DNA from: Jiangella sp. DSM 45060
GTDB lineage: Bacteria; Actinomycetota; Actinomycetes; Jiangellales; Jiangellaceae
NCBI RefSeq assembly: GCF_900105175.1
Contig: NZ_LT629771.1
Location: 186,001-250,000, forward strand
Direction: 5' to 3'
Length of the DNA: 64,000 nucleotides
The notes below the pieces were generated by a model. It was given only the letters and a program-made list of their open reading frames with translations. It was not told the DNA's origin and made no database searches. Shown piece after piece: positions 8,210-39,300 of the stretch. Both the position numbers and the translations under genes were made by a program. Position 1 is the first letter of the stretch. Every line of letters begins with the position of its first letter.

Positions 8210-9648
8210 GAGCCGTGCACACCGTCGCGGAGATCCGCGCCGCCGAGGACGCCCTGATGGCGCGGCTGCCCGAGGGCGCGCTCATGCAGCGGGCGGTCGC
8301 CGGCCTGGTGACGGTCTGCGCGGGCCTGCTCGACGGGGTGTACGGCGCGCGCGTGGTCGTGCTGGCCGGCGCCGGCAACAACGGCGGCGACGCGCTCTGG
8401 GCCGGCGCCCGGCTGGCCCGCCGCGGCGCGCACGCCGACGCCGTCCTGCTGAACCCGGAGAAGGCGCATGCGGAGGGCTTGGCGGCGTTCCGCGCCGCGG
8501 GCGGGCGCATCGTCGGCCCTGACGGCGTGAACGGCGCGCTCGCCGCCGCCGACCTCGTGCTGGACGGCATCCTCGGCATCGGCGGGCGGGGCGGGCTGCG
8601 CGGCGAGGCGGCCGAGCTGGCGCAGCTGCTGGGCGCGGGCCGCACGGCGGGCGCCGTCGTCGCCGTCGATCTTCCCAGCGGGGTCGACCCCGACACCGGC
8701 GAGACGCCCGGCCCGCACGTCGTCGCCGACCACACCGTCACGTTCGGCACCGGTAAGGCCGCGCTGGTCATCGACCCCGCGGCGGCCGCGGCCGGCGTCG
8801 TGCACGCCGTCGACATCGGGCTGACCCCGTACCTGCCGGAACCCGGGCTGACCGTGCTCGACGACGCCGACGTCGCGGCGCTGCTGCCCGATCCCGGCCG
8901 CGAGTCGGACAAGTACTCCCGCGGCGTCGTCGGCGTGCTGGCCGGGTCGGGGGAGTACCCCGGCGCGGCCGTCCTGGCCGTCGGCGGCGCGCTGCACGGC
9001 GGCGCCGGCATGGTCCGCTACGCCGGGCCCGGGGCCGTCGCCACCGAAGTGCGGGCCCGCTGGCCCGAGGCGATCGCCGGACCGTCACCGGACACCGTCG
9101 GGCGGGTGCAGGCCTGGACCATCGGCTCCGGGCTCGGTTCCGGCCGCGAGGCCGATGTCGCGGCGGCGCTGGCCGCCGGCCTGCCGGTCCTCGTCGACGC
9201 CGACGGCCTGCGCTCGCTGCCCGAGCGGTTCACCGGCTCGGCGCTGCTGACTCCGCACGCCGGTGAGCTGGCCCGGCTGCTGGGCGTCGAACGCGACGAG
9301 GTCGAGGCTCGTCGGCTGCACCACGCCCGGGCCGCCGCGGCCAGGTGGAACGCCGTCGTGCTGCTCAAGGGGTCGACGACGGTGCTGGCGTCGCCCGACG
9401 GGCGGGTGCGGGTCAACCCGACCGGGACGTCCGCGCTGGCCGCCGCCGGCACCGGCGACGTGCTCGCAGGGCTGGCCGGATCGCTGCTGGCCGGCGGGCT
9501 GTCACCGCTCGACGCGGGCAGCGTGGCGGCGTACGCGCACGGCCTCGCCGGGCAGCGGGCCGCGGCCGCGTCCGGGTACCCGAGCGCCGGCGACGTGCTG
9601 GCGGAGCTGCCGGCCGTGCTGCGGTCCCTGCGCGGCGCTTTGCCATGA
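8206..9648 (+). CDS. nnr: Bifunctional NAD(P)HX epimerase / ADP-dependent NAD(P)HX dehydratase
   Basis: 480 residues, with GTG 8206 overlapping the acpS stop. The N-terminal YjeF_N domain (about 1-205) carries [12 protein letters not shown] and ends in [13 protein letters not shown]; it epimerises damaged NAD(P)H hydrate. The C-terminal ribokinase-like domain (about 215-480) carries [22 protein letters not shown] and [12 protein letters not shown]; it dehydrates the S-form using ADP. The fused two-domain form is the usual bacterial one. The stop codon lies inside a 52-bp near-perfect palindrome. Upstream of alr, as in many actinomycetes. Confidence 0.93.
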
Positions 9649-32726: not shown

Positions 32727-34562
32727 ATGCGCCGGCCCGTCGTCCTTGCCCTTGTTCTCGCGCTTCCAGCGACCGTTCTCGCAGCTCACGCTCCCGCACA
32801 GGCGTCGCCGCCGATCAGGCAGACCGTCGTCTTCGAGTCCGGTACCGAGGGTTACGACACGTTCCGCATCCCCGCGATCGTCCGCTCCGACAAGGGGACG
32901 CTGCTCGCGTTCGCCGAGGGCCGGGTCGGCGGCGGGGGCGACACCGGCGACATCGACCTGGTGCTGCGCCGCTCGTACGACGACGGCCGCACGTGGGGCC
33001 CGCTGCAGGTGGTCGGCGACAACGGCGTGAACGTCTTCGGCAACCCGACCCCCGTGGTCGACCCGAGCACCGGCGACGTCGTCCTGCTCAGCACCCACAA
33101 CGCCGGCGACGCCACCGAGGCCGAGATCATGCGCGGCGAGGTCACCCCCGAGCAGAGCCGCCGCGTGTTCGTCCAGCGCAGCAGCGACGACGGCGCCAGC
33201 TGGTCGGCCGCGCAGGACATCACGGCCGCCACCAAGCTGCCCGAGTGGCGCTGGTACGCCACCGGGCCGGTGCACGCCATCGCGCTGGAGCACGGCGAGC
33301 ACCGCGGGCGGCTCGTCGCGGCGGCGAACCACTCGACCAGCCCGCCGCCCGGCTCGTCCGACACCGGGCAGGAGGCGAAGTACTACGGCGCGCACTCCCT
33401 CTACAGCGACGACGGCGGCCTGACCTGGCAGCTCGGCGACGTCGACACCCCGCTGACCGGCGTCGTGAACCCGAACGAGAACACCGTCACCGAGCTCGCC
33501 GACGGCACCCTCTACTTCAACGCGCGCGACCAGAACGGCACCGGCGTCGGCACCCGCGCGACGACCACCAGCAGCGACGGCGGCGAGACGTTCGACGCGC
33601 CGTACGCGCTGGAGCCGGACATCGTCACCCCGGTCGTGCAGGGCTCGGTGCTGCGGCTGCCGCGCGCCGGCGACCGGCTCGTGTACTCCGGCCCGGCGAA
33701 CCCGACGGCCAGGCGGACGCTGCAGCTGCGGTACAGCTTCGACGAGGGCGCGACGTGGACCGGCGGGCCGGTGCTGCACGACGGGCCGGCGGCGTACTCC
33801 GACGTGGTCGTGGCCGGCGGGCGGACGCTCGGCGTGCTGTACGAGAACGGCGACACCGGGACGTACGAGCGCATCACGTTCGCGCGGGTGCCGTTCGCCG
33901 CGCTGGACCGCGGGCTGGCGCCGGTCACGACGACGCCGGACGCGTCGGGCGGCGGGCAGGACGGCGTCGTCGGCGGGTCGCCGGAGGTGGTCGCCGACGG
34001 TGCCGTGGACGCGGGGCTGCGACTCGCGGCGGGCGACTTCGTGGCGGTGCCGCGGAGCTCTCGCGTCGACGTCGGCGCCGGGCCGTTCACCGCGGCCGGC
34101 TGGTTCCGTACCGACGCCGCCGCCGACCAGGCGCTGCTGTGGGCGTACAACTCGGGCAGCGGGCGGGACCAGTGGTGGGTCCGGCTCGAGCCCGGGGCGA
34201 ACCGGATCCGGGCACTGATCGACACCTCGCTGGGCAGCGGCACGCTGGTCGCGCCGGGCTCGTTCGCCGACGGCGCCTGGCACCACGTGGCGCTGGTCCG
34301 CGGTGACGACGGGGTGGCCCTCTACGTCGACGGTGCCCTGGCCGCGTCGGCCGGGCCGGTCGCGGGCTCCGTCACCACCGACGCCGCCATCGGCCTGCAC
34401 CTGGGCCAGCGGCCGGACGGCGCCAACCAGCTGCTCGGCGACCTCGACGACGTCTGGCTGCTCGGCCGGGCGGCGGCCGCGGACGAGCTCGCCGCGCTGG
34501 CCGCCGGTGCCGCCGTCGGAGACCCGCTCGTGCACCTGCCGCTCGACGAGCTGAGCCGCTGA
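32727..34562 (+). CDS. Secreted sialidase (GH33) with C-terminal LamG-like domain
   Basis: 611 residues. Signal peptide 1-26 ends in AQA. The catalytic propeller (about 30-390) has the FRIP motif (DTFRIPAIV) holding the first Arg of the triad, and Asp-boxes SYDDGRTW, SSDDGASW, SDDGGLTW, SSDGGETF and SFDEGATW. A concanavalin-A/LamG-type domain (about 430-600; FTAAGWFRTD, WHHVALVRGDDGVALYVDG) probably binds glycan. It releases terminal sialic acids outside the cell. SD GAAGGAG precedes ATG 32727. Divergent from the sialic-acid-epimerase-like gene. Confidence 0.92.
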   Translation: MRRPVVLALVLALPATVLAAHAPAQASPPIRQTVVFESGTEGYDTFRIPAIVRSDKGTLLAFAEGRVGGGGDTGDIDLVLRRSYDDGRTWGPLQVVGDNGVNVFGNPTPVVDPSTGDVVLLSTHNAGDATEAEIMRGEVTPEQSRRVFVQRSSDDGASWSAAQDITAATKLPEWRWYATGPVHAIALEHGEHRGRLVAAANHSTSPPPGSSDTGQEAKYYGAHSLYSDDGGLTWQLGDVDTPLTGVVNPNENTVTELADGTLYFNARDQNGTGVGTRATTTSSDGGETFDAPYALEPDIVTPVVQGSVLRLPRAGDRLVYSGPANPTARRTLQLRYSFDEGATWTGGPVLHDGPAAYSDVVVAGGRTLGVLYENGDTGTYERITFARVPFAALDRGLAPVTTTPDASGGGQDGVVGGSPEVVADGAVDAGLRLAAGDFVAVPRSSRVDVGAGPFTAAGWFRTDAAADQALLWAYNSGSGRDQWWVRLEPGANRIRALIDTSLGSGTLVAPGSFADGAWHHVALVRGDDGVALYVDGALAASAGPVAGSVTTDAAIGLHLGQRPDGANQLLGDLDDVWLLGRAAAADELAALAAGAAVGDPLVHLPLDELSR

Positions 34563-34603: not shown

Positions 34604-35593
34604 ATGAGCCGTGCGCGGGTCGGGTACAGCGCCATGTTGGAGCGGTTCGCGCCGTCCGAGGTGGTGCAACTGACGGTGGCGGCCGAGGAGGCCGGGTTCG
34701 ACGGCGTCATGGCCGACGACCACTTCCAGCCGTGGACGCCGCAGCAGGGGCAGGCCGGGTTCGTCTGGAACGTCATGACGGCGATGGCCGAGCGCACCCG
34801 CGGCTCGGTCGGCGTCGGCGCGACCTGCCCGTCGTTCCGCTGGCACCCGGCGGTCGTCGCGCAGGCGGCGGCAACGCTGGAGCAGCTGTACCCGGGGCGG
34901 CACTGGCTCGGCATCGGGTCCGGCGAGGCCATCAGCGAGCACGTCGTCGGCGGGTACTGGCCCGAGGCGCCGCAGCGCATCGCCCGCATGTTCGAGGCGG
35001 TGGAGATCATCCAGAAGCTCTTCACCGGCCGCGACGTCCGCCACGACGGCCGGTTCTTCACCCTCGAGCGCACCCGCCTCTGGACCATGCCCGACGCGCC
35101 GCCGCCGGTCTACATCGCGACGTCCGGCCCGATCACCGCCCGCCGGGCCGGCGCCTCCTGCGACGGCATGATCACCGTCGCCAGCACGCCCGAGAAGGTG
35201 GCGTCCCTCTTCGCCCGGTTCGACGATGGCGCCCGCTCGAACGGCAAGGACCCGTCGACGCTGGCGAAGATCGTGCAGGTGCACCTGTCGTGGGCGCCCG
35301 ACCCGGCCGAGGCCGCCGCCCAGGCGTTGCGCGAATGGCCCAACGGCGCCATGCGCTTCTCCAAGGCCGACCTCCGTTCCCCCTACGACGTCGACCAGAT
35401 CGCCCGCATGGTCCGCGTCGAGGACTTCGACGGCCGGGTCACCATCTCCGCCGACCTCGACGTGCACCGCCAGGAGCTCCAGCGCTACCTCGACGCCGGC
35501 GCCACCCACCTCTATCTGCACGACGCCGGCCCCGACCAGCGCACCTGGATCGACGTGTTCGGCCGCGAGGTCCTCCCGAAGCTCACGGCCTGA
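34604..35593 (+). CDS. F420-dependent LLM-class oxidoreductase (F420 G6P-dehydrogenase-like family)
   Basis: 329 residues. It begins VGYSAMLERFAPSEVVQL, with ADDHFQPW near residue 40 and GIGSGEAISEHVVGGYWP near 100. This is the pattern of the luciferase-like subfamily that includes F420-dependent glucose-6-phosphate dehydrogenase; the exact substrate is unknown. The TIM-barrel is probably cytoplasmic and uses coenzyme F420 as hydride carrier. It faces a convergent importer whose proposed cargo is an F420 precursor, with stops only 6 bases apart. Confidence 0.85.
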   Translation: MSRARVGYSAMLERFAPSEVVQLTVAAEEAGFDGVMADDHFQPWTPQQGQAGFVWNVMTAMAERTRGSVGVGATCPSFRWHPAVVAQAAATLEQLYPGRHWLGIGSGEAISEHVVGGYWPEAPQRIARMFEAVEIIQKLFTGRDVRHDGRFFTLERTRLWTMPDAPPPVYIATSGPITARRAGASCDGMITVASTPEKVASLFARFDDGARSNGKDPSTLAKIVQVHLSWAPDPAEAAAQALREWPNGAMRFSKADLRSPYDVDQIARMVRVEDFDGRVTISADLDVHRQELQRYLDAGATHLYLHDAGPDQRTWIDVFGREVLPKLTA

Positions 35594-35599
35594 CGAGGG

Positions 35600-36396
<797 letters not shown>

Positions 36397-36400
<4 letters not shown>

Positions 36401-37476
36401 CGGCCTACCCTCCGGCGACGCAACAGGACGGCGAACGCGGGCGCGCCGAGGAACGCCGTGACGACGCCCACCGGCAGCTCGCGCGGATCGAACAGCGTGC
36501 GGGCCAGCGTGTCGGCCCAGATCATGAAGCTCGCGCCGGCCAGCGCCGCCAGCGGCAGCACCCGCCGGTGCCCGGAGCCGACGACGAACCTGACGGCGTG
36601 CGGCAGCATCAGCCCGACGAACCCGATGGCCCCGCTGACGGCGACGGCGGCCCCGGTGAGCAGCGCGACCAGCGTCAGCAGCGTCCACCGGGTCGCGTTG
36701 ACGTTGATGCCCAGCGTCGACGCGGTGCTGTCGCCGAACGCGAACGCGTCCAGCGTCCGGGCCCGCGACACCAGCGCCGTCCCGACCACGACGACGGCGA
36801 CCCAGACGATCGCCGCGTCGGTCCACGACGCGCCGCCGAGCGAGCCGAGCAGCCAGCTGAGGATCTCGCGGTAGGAGTCGCCTGTCGCCGACCAGAAGAT
36901 GATGAACGACGTCGCCGCCGAGCACAGGTACGACACCGCCAGCCCGGCCAGCACCGTCCGCGTCGGCGCCAGTTCGCCGCGGCGGTTGGCCAGCGCGAAC
37001 GTCACTACGAGCGCCAGCAGCGCGCCGGCGAACGCGGCGACCGGCAGCCCGAGCCAGCCGATGCCCAGGATCAGCACCGCCACGGCCCCGACCGACGCGC
37101 CGGACGACAGGCCCAGCAGGTACGGGTCGGCCAGCGGGTTGCGCGTCAGCGTCTGCATGACGGCGCCACAGAGGGCCAGCGCGGCGCCCACCGCGGCCGC
37201 CGTCAGCACCCGCGGCAGCCGCAGCTCCCACACGATGCCGTCACGCAGCACCGACAGCGACGTCGAGGTCAGCCCCAGGTGGTCGCCGATCGAGCGCCAC
37301 ACGTCGAGCGGGTGCAGGTCGGCCGAGCCGATCGTCACCGCGAGCGTCACCGACGCCGCCAGCACGACCGCCATGGCGGTGATCCAGGCGGTCGTGCGCG
37401 CGGCCGTCCGTCCCGACGGTGCGTCCGCGGGCGCGGGCGGAGGTGCGCCGGTCGCCGGTGCCGTCGTCGTGGTCAC
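36397..37476 (-). CDS. FecCD-type ABC transporter permease (proposed F420-0 importer)
   Basis: 359 residues from GTG 37476, which overlaps the binding-protein stop. After a Pro/Ala-rich cytoplasmic start there are about nine to ten helices. FecCD/BtuC motifs include LRLPRVLTAAAVGAALALCGAVMQ, NPLADPYLLGLSSGASVGA and GFVGLMLPHAVR (the ATPase-coupling loop). Homodimer expected in the membrane. Confidence 0.9.
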
Positions 37477-38501
37477 TGGTCCAGCGCCTCCAGCTGGGCC
37501 GCGAGGTCGACGACGGCCTGCGCGTTGCGGACGCCCGCCTCGGCCGCCGGGAACGGCAGCCGCAGATACCGCTGCTCGGCGACGGCGGGCAGCGCGGCGG
37601 TGGCCGGATTGCCCTCGAGTCGCTCGATCTTGCTGTCGGCGGTGTTCCACGCGGCGTCGACCAGGACGATCACGTCGGGGTCGCGGTCGATGACCTGCTC
37701 CCAGCTGACGTTCGACCAGGTGGCGTCGACGTCGGCGAAGATGTTCTCGACGCCGAGCTCGCGCATCACCATGGCCGGCGCGCCGATGTCGCCGCCGACG
37801 AACGGCGCGTCCTCGCCGGAGGAGTACCAGAGCGCCGTCAGCCCGTCGCCGGGCGCCTCGACCTGGTCGAGCAGCGCCTGCTGCTCGGCGATCAGCTCGT
37901 CGGCGCGCTCGGTGGCGCCGAAGAACGACGCGACCTCACGGATCTCCGCGAACAGCTCGTCGAACGTCATCGGGTCGGGCTGGTACTCGGGCTCCTGGCA
38001 GGCGGCCGGGGACACGTACGTCGCGATGCCGAAGTCGGCCAGCGATGACCGGTCACCGGCGGTGTCGGCGCCGAAGTTGCTCTCCCAGCCGCCGTAGACG
38101 AAGTCGGGCTCGACGTCGAGCAGGGCCTCCTGGCCGGGCACGTTGTCGGACAGCACGGGGACGTCGTCGAGGTCGCCCGCATAGTCGTCCGGCAGCGGGC
38201 CGTCGGAGAACGCGGTGCCGACGAGGCGGTCGGCGAGGCCGAGCGCGAGCATCATCTCCGTCGCGGTCGACTTGATGGTGACGACGCGCTCCGGCGGGCT
38301 GTCGATGCTCACCTCGGTGCCGCAGTTGTCGACGGTGACCGGCGTGAACTCGCCGGCCGTACCGGTTGCGGCCGCCTCGGTCTGGCCGGCCTCGGCCGGG
38401 TCGTCATCGGCCGAGCAGCCGGTCAGCACGACCGTCGCGACCGCGCCGGCCGCGACGCCGACGAGGGCAGCGCGGAACGTTCGGAAAGGGAATAGCGCCA
38501 C
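37473..38501 (-). CDS. ABC transporter substrate-binding lipoprotein (proposed F420-0 binding protein)
   Basis: 342 residues from GTG 38501, with lipobox VLTGC (Cys29). The type III binding fold has DNCGTEVSIDSPPERVVTI, STATEMMLALGLADRLVG, DFVYGGWESNFG and a C-terminal WNTADSKIERLEGNP. From memory these match the clade annotated as putative F420-0 transporter binding protein more closely than iron-siderophore binders. No database search was possible. An F420-dependent oxidoreductase follows the cassette, which fits. GGAGA lies five bases before the GTG but is inside a hairpin. Confidence 0.82.
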   Translation of the reverse strand: MALFPFRTFRAALVGVAAGAVATVVLTGCSADDDPAEAGQTEAAATGTAGEFTPVTVDNCGTEVSIDSPPERVVTIKSTATEMMLALGLADRLVGTAFSDGPLPDDYAGDLDDVPVLSDNVPGQEALLDVEPDFVYGGWESNFGADTAGDRSSLADFGIATYVSPAACQEPEYQPDPMTFDELFAEIREVASFFGATERADELIAEQQALLDQVEAPGDGLTALWYSSGEDAPFVGGDIGAPAMVMRELGVENIFADVDATWSNVSWEQVIDRDPDVIVLVDAAWNTADSKIERLEGNPATAALPAVAEQRYLRLPFPAAEAGVRNAQAVVDLAAQLEALDQ

Positions 38502-38504
38502 TGG

Positions 38505-38604
38505 GTCTCCACAGGCAGGCAGGGTCCGTTGGAGACGGTCCAAGGCGACCGCCGAACCAGCTGCCCACTGACCGGGCAGACACAACAGAGCACAAGCGGT
38601 GCTC
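38505..38604 (-). promoter_or_regulatory. Structured leader of the proposed F420-0 importer
   Basis: Reading the minus strand there are four stem-loops in order: GAGCAC/GTGCTC (38588-38604), CTGCCC/GGGCAG (38561-38579), GGTC/GACC (38537-38550), and GTCTCC/GGAGAC (38505-38536). The last includes the SD and ends 4 bases before the GTG. The order suggests a cis-regulatory RNA that can expose or hide the ribosome-binding site. It does not match the cobalamin riboswitch core. Confidence 0.45.
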
Positions 38605-39050
38605 CGGGGCTTCGCTCATCTTAAGCAGCCGAACCCGCAGAAATCATCCCCCTGGGGCGAGATTTATCAAGAATCCATGGATGCGGGCTGGGTTGGGGTG
38701 GTGTCGGCGCGGTGGGGCGGGCGCTGTGGGGCCGGCACGGTGGGGAGCGGGTCGAGGCGGGCGCGGTGACGACGCCGCCCGCTCGGCGGCTGAGGGGCCG
38801 GGGCGGCTGATGGGGCCGGGGTCGTGTGGGCGGCGGTGCGCCGGGATCGGCGGCCGGAGCGGCGACGGAGGCGCAGCGGCCCTGGGGTGGCCGGTGGCCT
38901 GCGGCGGGGTGGCGGGCTGGGGCGGTGCGCCGGAATCGGCGGCCCCGGGGTCGTGCGGCGGGCGGTGGCCGGGGATGCGCGCCGCGGCCGGCGGCCCGGG
39001 GGTGGGACGGCCGGCGGTCCGCGTCCGGCGGGGTGACCGGCCGGTTGCGC

Positions 39051-39136
39051 GGTGCGGCGGCCCACCCAGGAGGGTGGGGTGCCCTCCCGGCCGGGTGGGC
39101 CTTCACACTACGCGCGAGCACCGACAACGTCCGCCG
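39051..39136 (+). repeat. 85-bp repeat, copy A
   Basis: 86 bp, matching 39211-39295 with one substitution and one base of length difference. The reverse complement of its second half (TGTCGGTGC...GTAG...GGCC...CACCCGG) resembles the dispersed repeat copies at 32.4 and 42.0 kb. Confidence 0.85.
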
Positions 39137-39210
39137 CTCGGCTGCGTGGGCGTCCGGTGGGTGGAGCCGTCCGGTGGCCCGGGTGGTGTGCCGCGATCGA
39201 CGCGCGGGGC

Positions 39211-39295
39211 GGTGCGGTGGCCCACCCAGGAGGGTGGGTGCCCTCCCGGCCGGGTGGGCCTTCACACTACGCGCGAGCACCGACAACGTCCGCCG
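39211..39295 (+). repeat. 85-bp repeat, copy B
   Basis: Second copy, 160 bases downstream of copy A in the same orientation; it includes ACTACGCGCGAGCACCGACA. Confidence 0.85.
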
Positions 39296-39300
39296 CCCGC

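Follow-up and report, generated by a model that had tools for sequence, protein, structure and literature searches.

A conserved structured RNA forms the leader of an importer gene in Jiangella sp. DSM 45060, and we consider it, with a probability of roughly 0.6, to be a cis-regulatory RNA and riboswitch candidate of a class outside Rfam, a deazaflavin sensor that would control translation of the importer. The DNA analysed, here called the window, is the 64,000-nucleotide stretch from 186,001 to 250,000 of contig NZ_LT629771.1 (assembly GCF_900105175.1); coordinates below are those of the window. The RNA is conserved and structured, it starts behind a promoter box, it is associated with genes for a putative F420-0 importer, and genomes with this importer have no match for CofH/FbiC.

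There is about an even chance that the RNA represents the first class of riboswitches for a deazaflavin (F420, F420-0 or Fo), one that marks actinobacteria living on the Fo or F420 of their neighbours and tunes their importer. If that is true, there would be a riboswitch for a cofactor without one in the literature searched, and evidence at the level of regulation for the scavenging of F420 precursors as public goods; the leader RNA could also give a genetic reporter for Fo or F420. In that literature (main texts, mostly open access) no description was found of a riboswitch for F420, F420-0 or Fo, nor of this RNA, which was not found in PMC12855090, PMC11109978, PMC8498797, PMC6429828 and PMC8632094.

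The leader RNA and its parts

The leader lies on the minus strand, at about 38505-38614, 5' of the importer lipoprotein gene. It comprises the following parts (R3 is a covariance model described below; the family is Jiangellaceae).

38618-38623, minus strand: -10-like box TAAGAT, separated by 3 nt from P1 in the structure drawn here
38608-38614, minus strand: 5' arm of P1, CGAAGCC, with its partner at 38553-38558; placed by R3 with CGAA/UUCG (E 0.052)
38587-38605, minus strand: P2 hairpin, GGAGCAC-CGCUU-GUGCUCU; 97.6% of cells paired in 18 family leaders
38561-38579, minus strand: P3 hairpin, CUGCCC-GGUCAGU-GGGCAG; 100% of cells paired in 18 family leaders
38553-38558, minus strand: 3' arm of P1, GGUUCG; from the R3 placement and the family alignment
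38534-38553, minus strand: P4 hairpin, GGCGGUC-GCCUUG-GACCGUC, 3' of the three-way junction; 121 of 126 pair cells kept
38531-38536, minus strand: candidate anti-Shine-Dalgarno (anti-SD) sequence GUCUCC, exact complement of the SD region
38505-38510, minus strand: Shine-Dalgarno (SD) region GGAGAC, from the sequence

The candidate anti-SD overlaps the 3' arm of P4 by GUC, so that P4 and the GTCTCC/GGAGAC pairing compete. An earlier note on this DNA had proposed four consecutive stems within 38505-38604. P2, P3, P4 and the anti-SD pairing can indeed all form, but because of this overlap they are not simply consecutive; likewise, the sequence of that span is as given there, but the closing stem P1 begins upstream of it. 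The exact SD complement that the note had pointed out is present, GTCTCC being fully complementary to GGAGAC, which overlaps the SD. By itself it is weak evidence and not beyond chance: the pattern GTCTCC-N8..30-GGAGAC occurs once in the window against 0.26 expected, and 24 of 100 shuffled sequences contain at least one.

Folding of the single sequence was mildly unusual compared with shuffles (z -1.59, -1.65 and -1.42). The anti-SD stem was missing from the two longer minimum-energy folds and present in the fold of a 41-nt piece. The case for the leader rests on comparison with relatives, and it is conservation that raises it above chance.

No match to any Rfam family at the gathering score was obtained within the window, in agreement with the earlier note, which found the cobalamin core lacking and recognised no other class. 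A scan of 38400-38800 with Rfam 15 at E <= 10 returned only a 12-nt chance match to a snoRNA.

Promoter and transcription start

Upstream of P1, and no more than 22 nt from it, 50 of 50 leaders from Micrococcales have a TANNNT box whose end is 5-10 nt before P1; 10 of 2000 control stretches have one. Given this position, transcription most likely begins at or just before P1. A start downstream of the stems, which would speak against the structured leader, is not indicated in the window, where the -10-like box is found just upstream of P1. Another promoter-like pair (TTGATA-16-GATGAT, 38643-38670, minus strand) lies about 30 nt upstream of P1, inside the conserved block. Upstream of the leader, the window also contains two 64-nt direct repeats, 98% identical and 159 nt apart (39077-39299).

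Conservation within Jiangellaceae

A covariance model of 18 family leaders (R1) gave one strong match per genome in 19 of the 22 Jiangellaceae genomes (E 8e-14 to 3e-23), including G004, which was outside the training set. These matches cover 12 of 12 genomes of the genus Jiangella and every genome of two other genera; this is the group to which the Haloactinopolyspora and Phytoactinopolyspora loci belong. A strong match was absent from G014 and G015, which are small genomes of 75% and 81% completeness, and from G021, the single genome of a sixth genus. When R1 was run on 393 genomes of the class (E <= 0.01, stricter filters), it found those 19 plus one chance match. The R1 match L077 was set aside, because it falls within a frame whose translation looks like a sensor kinase.

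Identity among 10 Jiangella leaders was 0.74-0.97 from about -173 to +6, against 0.30-0.53 just upstream. The inner CC/GG of P1 pairs in 18 of 18 family rows, and its G-U (or A-U) pair in all 17 rows with letters at that place. In P2, an A-U to G-C double change was seen in 4 of 18 family leaders; in P3, 5 of 6 pairs are invariant among the 18. The 121 of 126 kept pair cells of P4 (18 Jiangellaceae leaders, gaps placed by script) were reached by 126 of 2000 shuffles. Covariation among Jiangellaceae alone was not above shuffles (0.140 vs 0.135, the score being reached by 157 of 500 shuffles), and the covariation support therefore comes from the wider group.

A wider class of importer leaders

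Importer leaders of the same plan were found in Cellulomonas, Cellulosimicrobium, Agromyces, Occultella, Georgenia, Ruania and others. They consist of a TANNNT box followed by P1, P2, P3 and P1', often with a further hairpin, and the hairpin loops of P2 and P3 usually end in U. A model built from 15 importer leaders from outside Jiangellaceae (R2) recovered the leader in 50 of 62 named loci outside the family at E <= 0.063, 35 of them untrained, with one false match in the same E range (L204 at 8430, 8430-8490, minus strand). Six loci with little upstream DNA (L132, L138, L142, L143, L144 and L157) were left out of this locus count, and L204 was left out of one later step, which kept out its false second match.

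In 48 distinct leaders of the wider group, 96.5% of cells pair and 14 of 18 pairs are changed on both sides, among them six of the seven pairs of P3. The covariation score was 0.447, against 0.154 +- 0.011 in shuffled alignments and at most 0.057 with partners slid; this alignment (A7) was fitted to the structure that it scores and leans towards it, and the shuffles ignore relatedness. An alignment fitted by covariance model was used because MAFFT misaligned P2 and P4 in some rows. Unguided RNAalifold recovered P1-P2-P3 from a MAFFT alignment of 15 trimmed leaders, and P2 and P3 from a mixed alignment of 36 leaders (five from Jiangellaceae), in which 8 of 10 pairs were changed on both sides; the segments for alignments A4 and A5 had been trimmed by hand to P1-P3. 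Compensatory changes, which the earlier note had proposed to look for in homologous leaders, thus occur, at those 14 of 18 pairs of the wider group and in P2 of the family. In the wider class the leader has what defines a riboswitch candidate, a conserved structured 5' domain with covarying stems, while for Jiangellaceae taken alone the covariation stays at the level of shuffles.

The order and position of the parts agree between the Jiangella leader and the wider class. In 13 loci outside the family, R1 without filters gave 22 matches at E <= 2. Five fall on the leader (L080, 0.0015; L082, 0.0078; L085, 0.049; L079, 0.061; L083, 0.48), and matches off the leader scored as well (L083, 0.0037; L081, 0.037). 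In the opposite direction we used R3, a model trained on importer leaders without Jiangellaceae. It matched the window leader at E 0.052, with P1, P2 and P3 placed as proposed here, and 9 of 19 family leaders at E 0.05-1.4, the eight besides that of the window at 0.14-1.4; two matches off the leader rank above the window leader (L051, 0.04; L057, 0.049). For R2 without filters the result was no better than chance, with 2 of the 19 Jiangellaceae leaders touched (E 1.0 and 3.0). Class-wide, R3 found 8 of the 13 importer genomes over the TIGR03868 cut-off outside the family and no family leader; its matches L215-L219 and L221-L223 overlap long open frames and were treated as chance. Judged from the shared layout and these weak model matches, the Jiangella RNA likely belongs to the wider class.

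The importer and its association with the RNA

Downstream of the leader lie the importer genes, followed by a convergent gene for an F420-dependent enzyme.

37473-38501, minus strand: importer substrate-binding lipoprotein; TIGR03868, 439.2 bits (cut-off 392.4)
36397-37542, minus strand: importer permease, 5' end approximate; TIGR03869, 474 bits (cut-off 437.35)
35600-36409, minus strand: importer ATP-binding protein, 5' end approximate; best match TIGR03873, 349 bits, below the cut-off of 372.4
34604-35593, plus strand: F420-dependent LLM-class oxidoreductase, convergent with and adjoining the importer; TIGR03557, 292.1 bits (cut-off 210.4)

The lipoprotein starts with a GTG at 38499-38501; its searches were run with 37473-38504, one codon too long. 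The designation as an F420-0-type importer, made earlier from the sequence, is borne out by the lipoprotein and the permease, which pass their cut-offs; for the ATPase TIGR03873 is the best match, though below its cut-off. The top match of the oxidoreductase, TIGR03885 (303.1), falls below the cut-off of that model (398.7). Beside this F420 enzyme gene a sialidase-like BNR protein with a laminin-G-like domain is encoded (32727-34562, plus strand).

In 376 genomes of the order of genome G217, R3 gave 51 matches at E <= 0.01, in 49 genomes. An importer binding protein lies downstream on the same strand, with 10-502 nt to its estimated start, for 43 of the 51. At E <= 4e-4, 38 of 39 matches were upstream of the importer; these genomes surely include some of the species that R3 was trained on, and the telling point is the near absence of strong matches elsewhere. 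The one remaining strong match (G050, E 6.8e-5) is 50 nt upstream of a gene for an EamA-family transporter; the chance expectation for such a match in 393 genomes is about 0.03. Weak matches in the order (L279, L287 and L291-L295, E 0.0019-0.0094) have no importer gene downstream, one of them being beside masked sequence, and were treated as chance. At L237 (6913-8000, minus strand), where the EamA-family gene follows the RNA, the genome has CofD and gave no CofH match; this transporter is possibly a second one for deazaflavins.

Relatives of the importer below the TIGR03868 cut-off occupy 33 places, of which 25 were given to Rfam; all 25 have the cobalamin riboswitch (RF00174) immediately upstream, whereas none of the 13 over-cut-off loci outside Jiangellaceae has a match to it. 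These sub-cut-off members may be corrinoid importers. The Jiangella genome studied here has a paralogous binding protein of this kind, also below the TIGR03868 cut-off, with a cobalamin riboswitch at 2533-2709 of its locus (L002, minus strand).

F420 metabolism of the importer genomes

CofH/FbiC is needed to make Fo. A search with TIGR03551 gave no CofH/FbiC match in 39 of 39 importer genomes, nor in G050, while 7 of 8 contrast genomes had one (p 1.3e-7 for the difference to the importer genomes). The 39 comprise 28 genomes over the TIGR03868 cut-off and 11 named genomes whose protein was found by similarity, without a TIGR03868 score; the 8 contrast genomes were chosen for having only a sub-cut-off relative, and G050 was added. 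In the class, 182 of 286 genomes have CofH/FbiC, and no importer genome is among the 182. G021 is the only family genome found with CofH; it has neither an over-cut-off importer nor a strong R1 match.

CofD was matched in 36 of the 39 importer genomes, in two of these below the cut-off (G192, and G017, where it is in two pieces). No CofD match was found in the importer genomes of L161, L196 and L206, all of which have the importer and the RNA. Of 80 importer loci, at least 29 have an LLM F420 enzyme among the neighbours, 21 have CofC, 11 CofE and 10 CofD; these lower bounds rest on ORFs called by a home-made picker, with one representative per F420 cluster confirmed. In the Jiangella genome itself CofD lies beside CofE.

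Since CofH/FbiC is absent throughout and CofD is mostly kept, the importer genomes probably salvage Fo or F420-0, and because the 36 genomes have CofD and no CofH, the cargo may be Fo rather than F420-0. On a plain reading of these gene contents, most bacteria with the importer would import Fo and finish F420 themselves, and those without CofD would need F420-0 or F420; the genomes of L161, L196 and L206 may accordingly import F420-0 or F420 rather than Fo. If all members of the class sense one compound, these three RNA-bearing genomes make F420-0 or F420 a likelier ligand than Fo. With the importer present where CofH/FbiC is absent, the idea that actinobacteria cross-feed one another with F420 can be put to a direct test.

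Proposed mechanism

The presumed aptamer is the three-way junction of P2 and P3 with the closing stem P1; in Jiangella P4, the downstream hairpin, and the anti-SD would make up the expression platform. With plenty of deazaflavin (most likely F420-0 or F420, possibly Fo) the junction would be stabilised, GUCUCC would mask GGAGAC and less importer would be made. With little deazaflavin, P4 would form in place of the anti-SD pairing, as the two share GUC, and translation would proceed. Feedback repression is the logic expected for an importer; the direction of control (ON or OFF), the ligand and the masking of the SD are inferred.

The GTCTCC anti-SD is found in all 11 aligned Jiangella leaders (L001 and L007-L016) without variation, and as both it and the SD are invariant in the genus, covariation cannot speak on this pairing. 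Among the sister genera, L037 and L038 have the pairing, and in L035, L036 and L040 it is weak or absent (the rows of L034 and L039 are void in this comparison). Enforcing P2 and P3 during folding produced no consistent shift of the predicted SD access in 7 leaders, and ON or OFF could not be read from folding energies. Of the ligand- or translation-controlled access to the ribosome-binding site suggested in the earlier note, the riboswitch-like conserved structured leader stands, but SD masking is putative, the pairing being invariant in the genus and inconsistent in its sister genera.

Alternative explanations and related systems

The leader could bind a protein instead of being a ligand-binding aptamer; the protein might be a regulator, or an F420-related enzyme that feeds back on the mRNA. 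Ligand binding by the leader is itself putative, and a survey of structured RNAs calls its own three-stem junction and other candidates possibly protein-bound (PMC11109978). However, the RNA starts at a promoter box and its shape has been kept with the importer in several actinobacterial families, and no regulator was recognised among the ten neighbour clusters whose sequences were read; we regard protein binding as unlikely, though worth keeping in mind. That the RNA is a genuine sensor with another target, for instance FMN, riboflavin or a redox signal, appears less likely again. Fo is an analogue of riboflavin. One genome has the RNA in front of an EamA transporter, and riboflavin importers are among the EamA/DMT proteins. 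On the other hand, FMN riboswitches are an Rfam family that had no match in the window, and the RNA is associated with an F420-type importer in genomes without CofH.

That the leader is ordinary mRNA structure or encodes a short leader peptide, without any sensing, would agree with its mildly stable single-sequence fold and with an open frame that runs through it in the window (ORF from 38585). This frame is broken among relatives, since the length from P1 to the start codon differs by one base (118 nt in L012, 119 nt in L001 and 120 nt in L007), and the compensatory changes and the recurrence of the shape in distant genera also make this explanation very improbable. Least credible of all is a degenerate cobalamin riboswitch in front of a corrinoid importer. 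The importer proteins do score on models of B12 importers, far below the cut-off, and the sub-cut-off relatives all have RF00174 where tested; yet 38400-38800 had no Rfam match apart from the chance snoRNA fragment, the over-cut-off loci outside the family had no RF00174, and the absence of CofH and the CofC, CofD and CofE neighbours point to F420.

As the riboswitch candidate for a deazaflavin that we favour, the RNA can be compared with several known systems. The cobalamin riboswitch occupies the same place, the leader, in sister importers, and in actinobacteria it is thought to act on translation; it differs in that neither the window leader nor the 13 over-cut-off loci match RF00174, and in size, as P1-P3 take up about 60 nt here against 189 positions in the RF00174 model. 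If the deazaflavin reading holds, the leader would resemble the FMN riboswitch (RF00050) in sensing a flavin-like ring. The aptamer for FMN is built as a six-helix junction, and scanning the window with Rfam gave no match to that riboswitch.

The dauA motif, found in Streptomyces in a survey of 50 genomes, is likewise a three-stem junction and includes the SD; it precedes a STAS-domain gene, which by description sets it apart (PMC11109978). The main text of that survey contains none of the words Jiangella, Cellulomonas and deazaflavin. The putative F420-0 ABC importer (TIGR03868/TIGR03869/TIGR03873) has the same gene cassette as the window, with the binding protein and the permease passing the cut-offs; that family is defined by its protein, however, and the occurrence of CofD without CofH in 36 of 39 genomes suggests Fo as the cargo in most.
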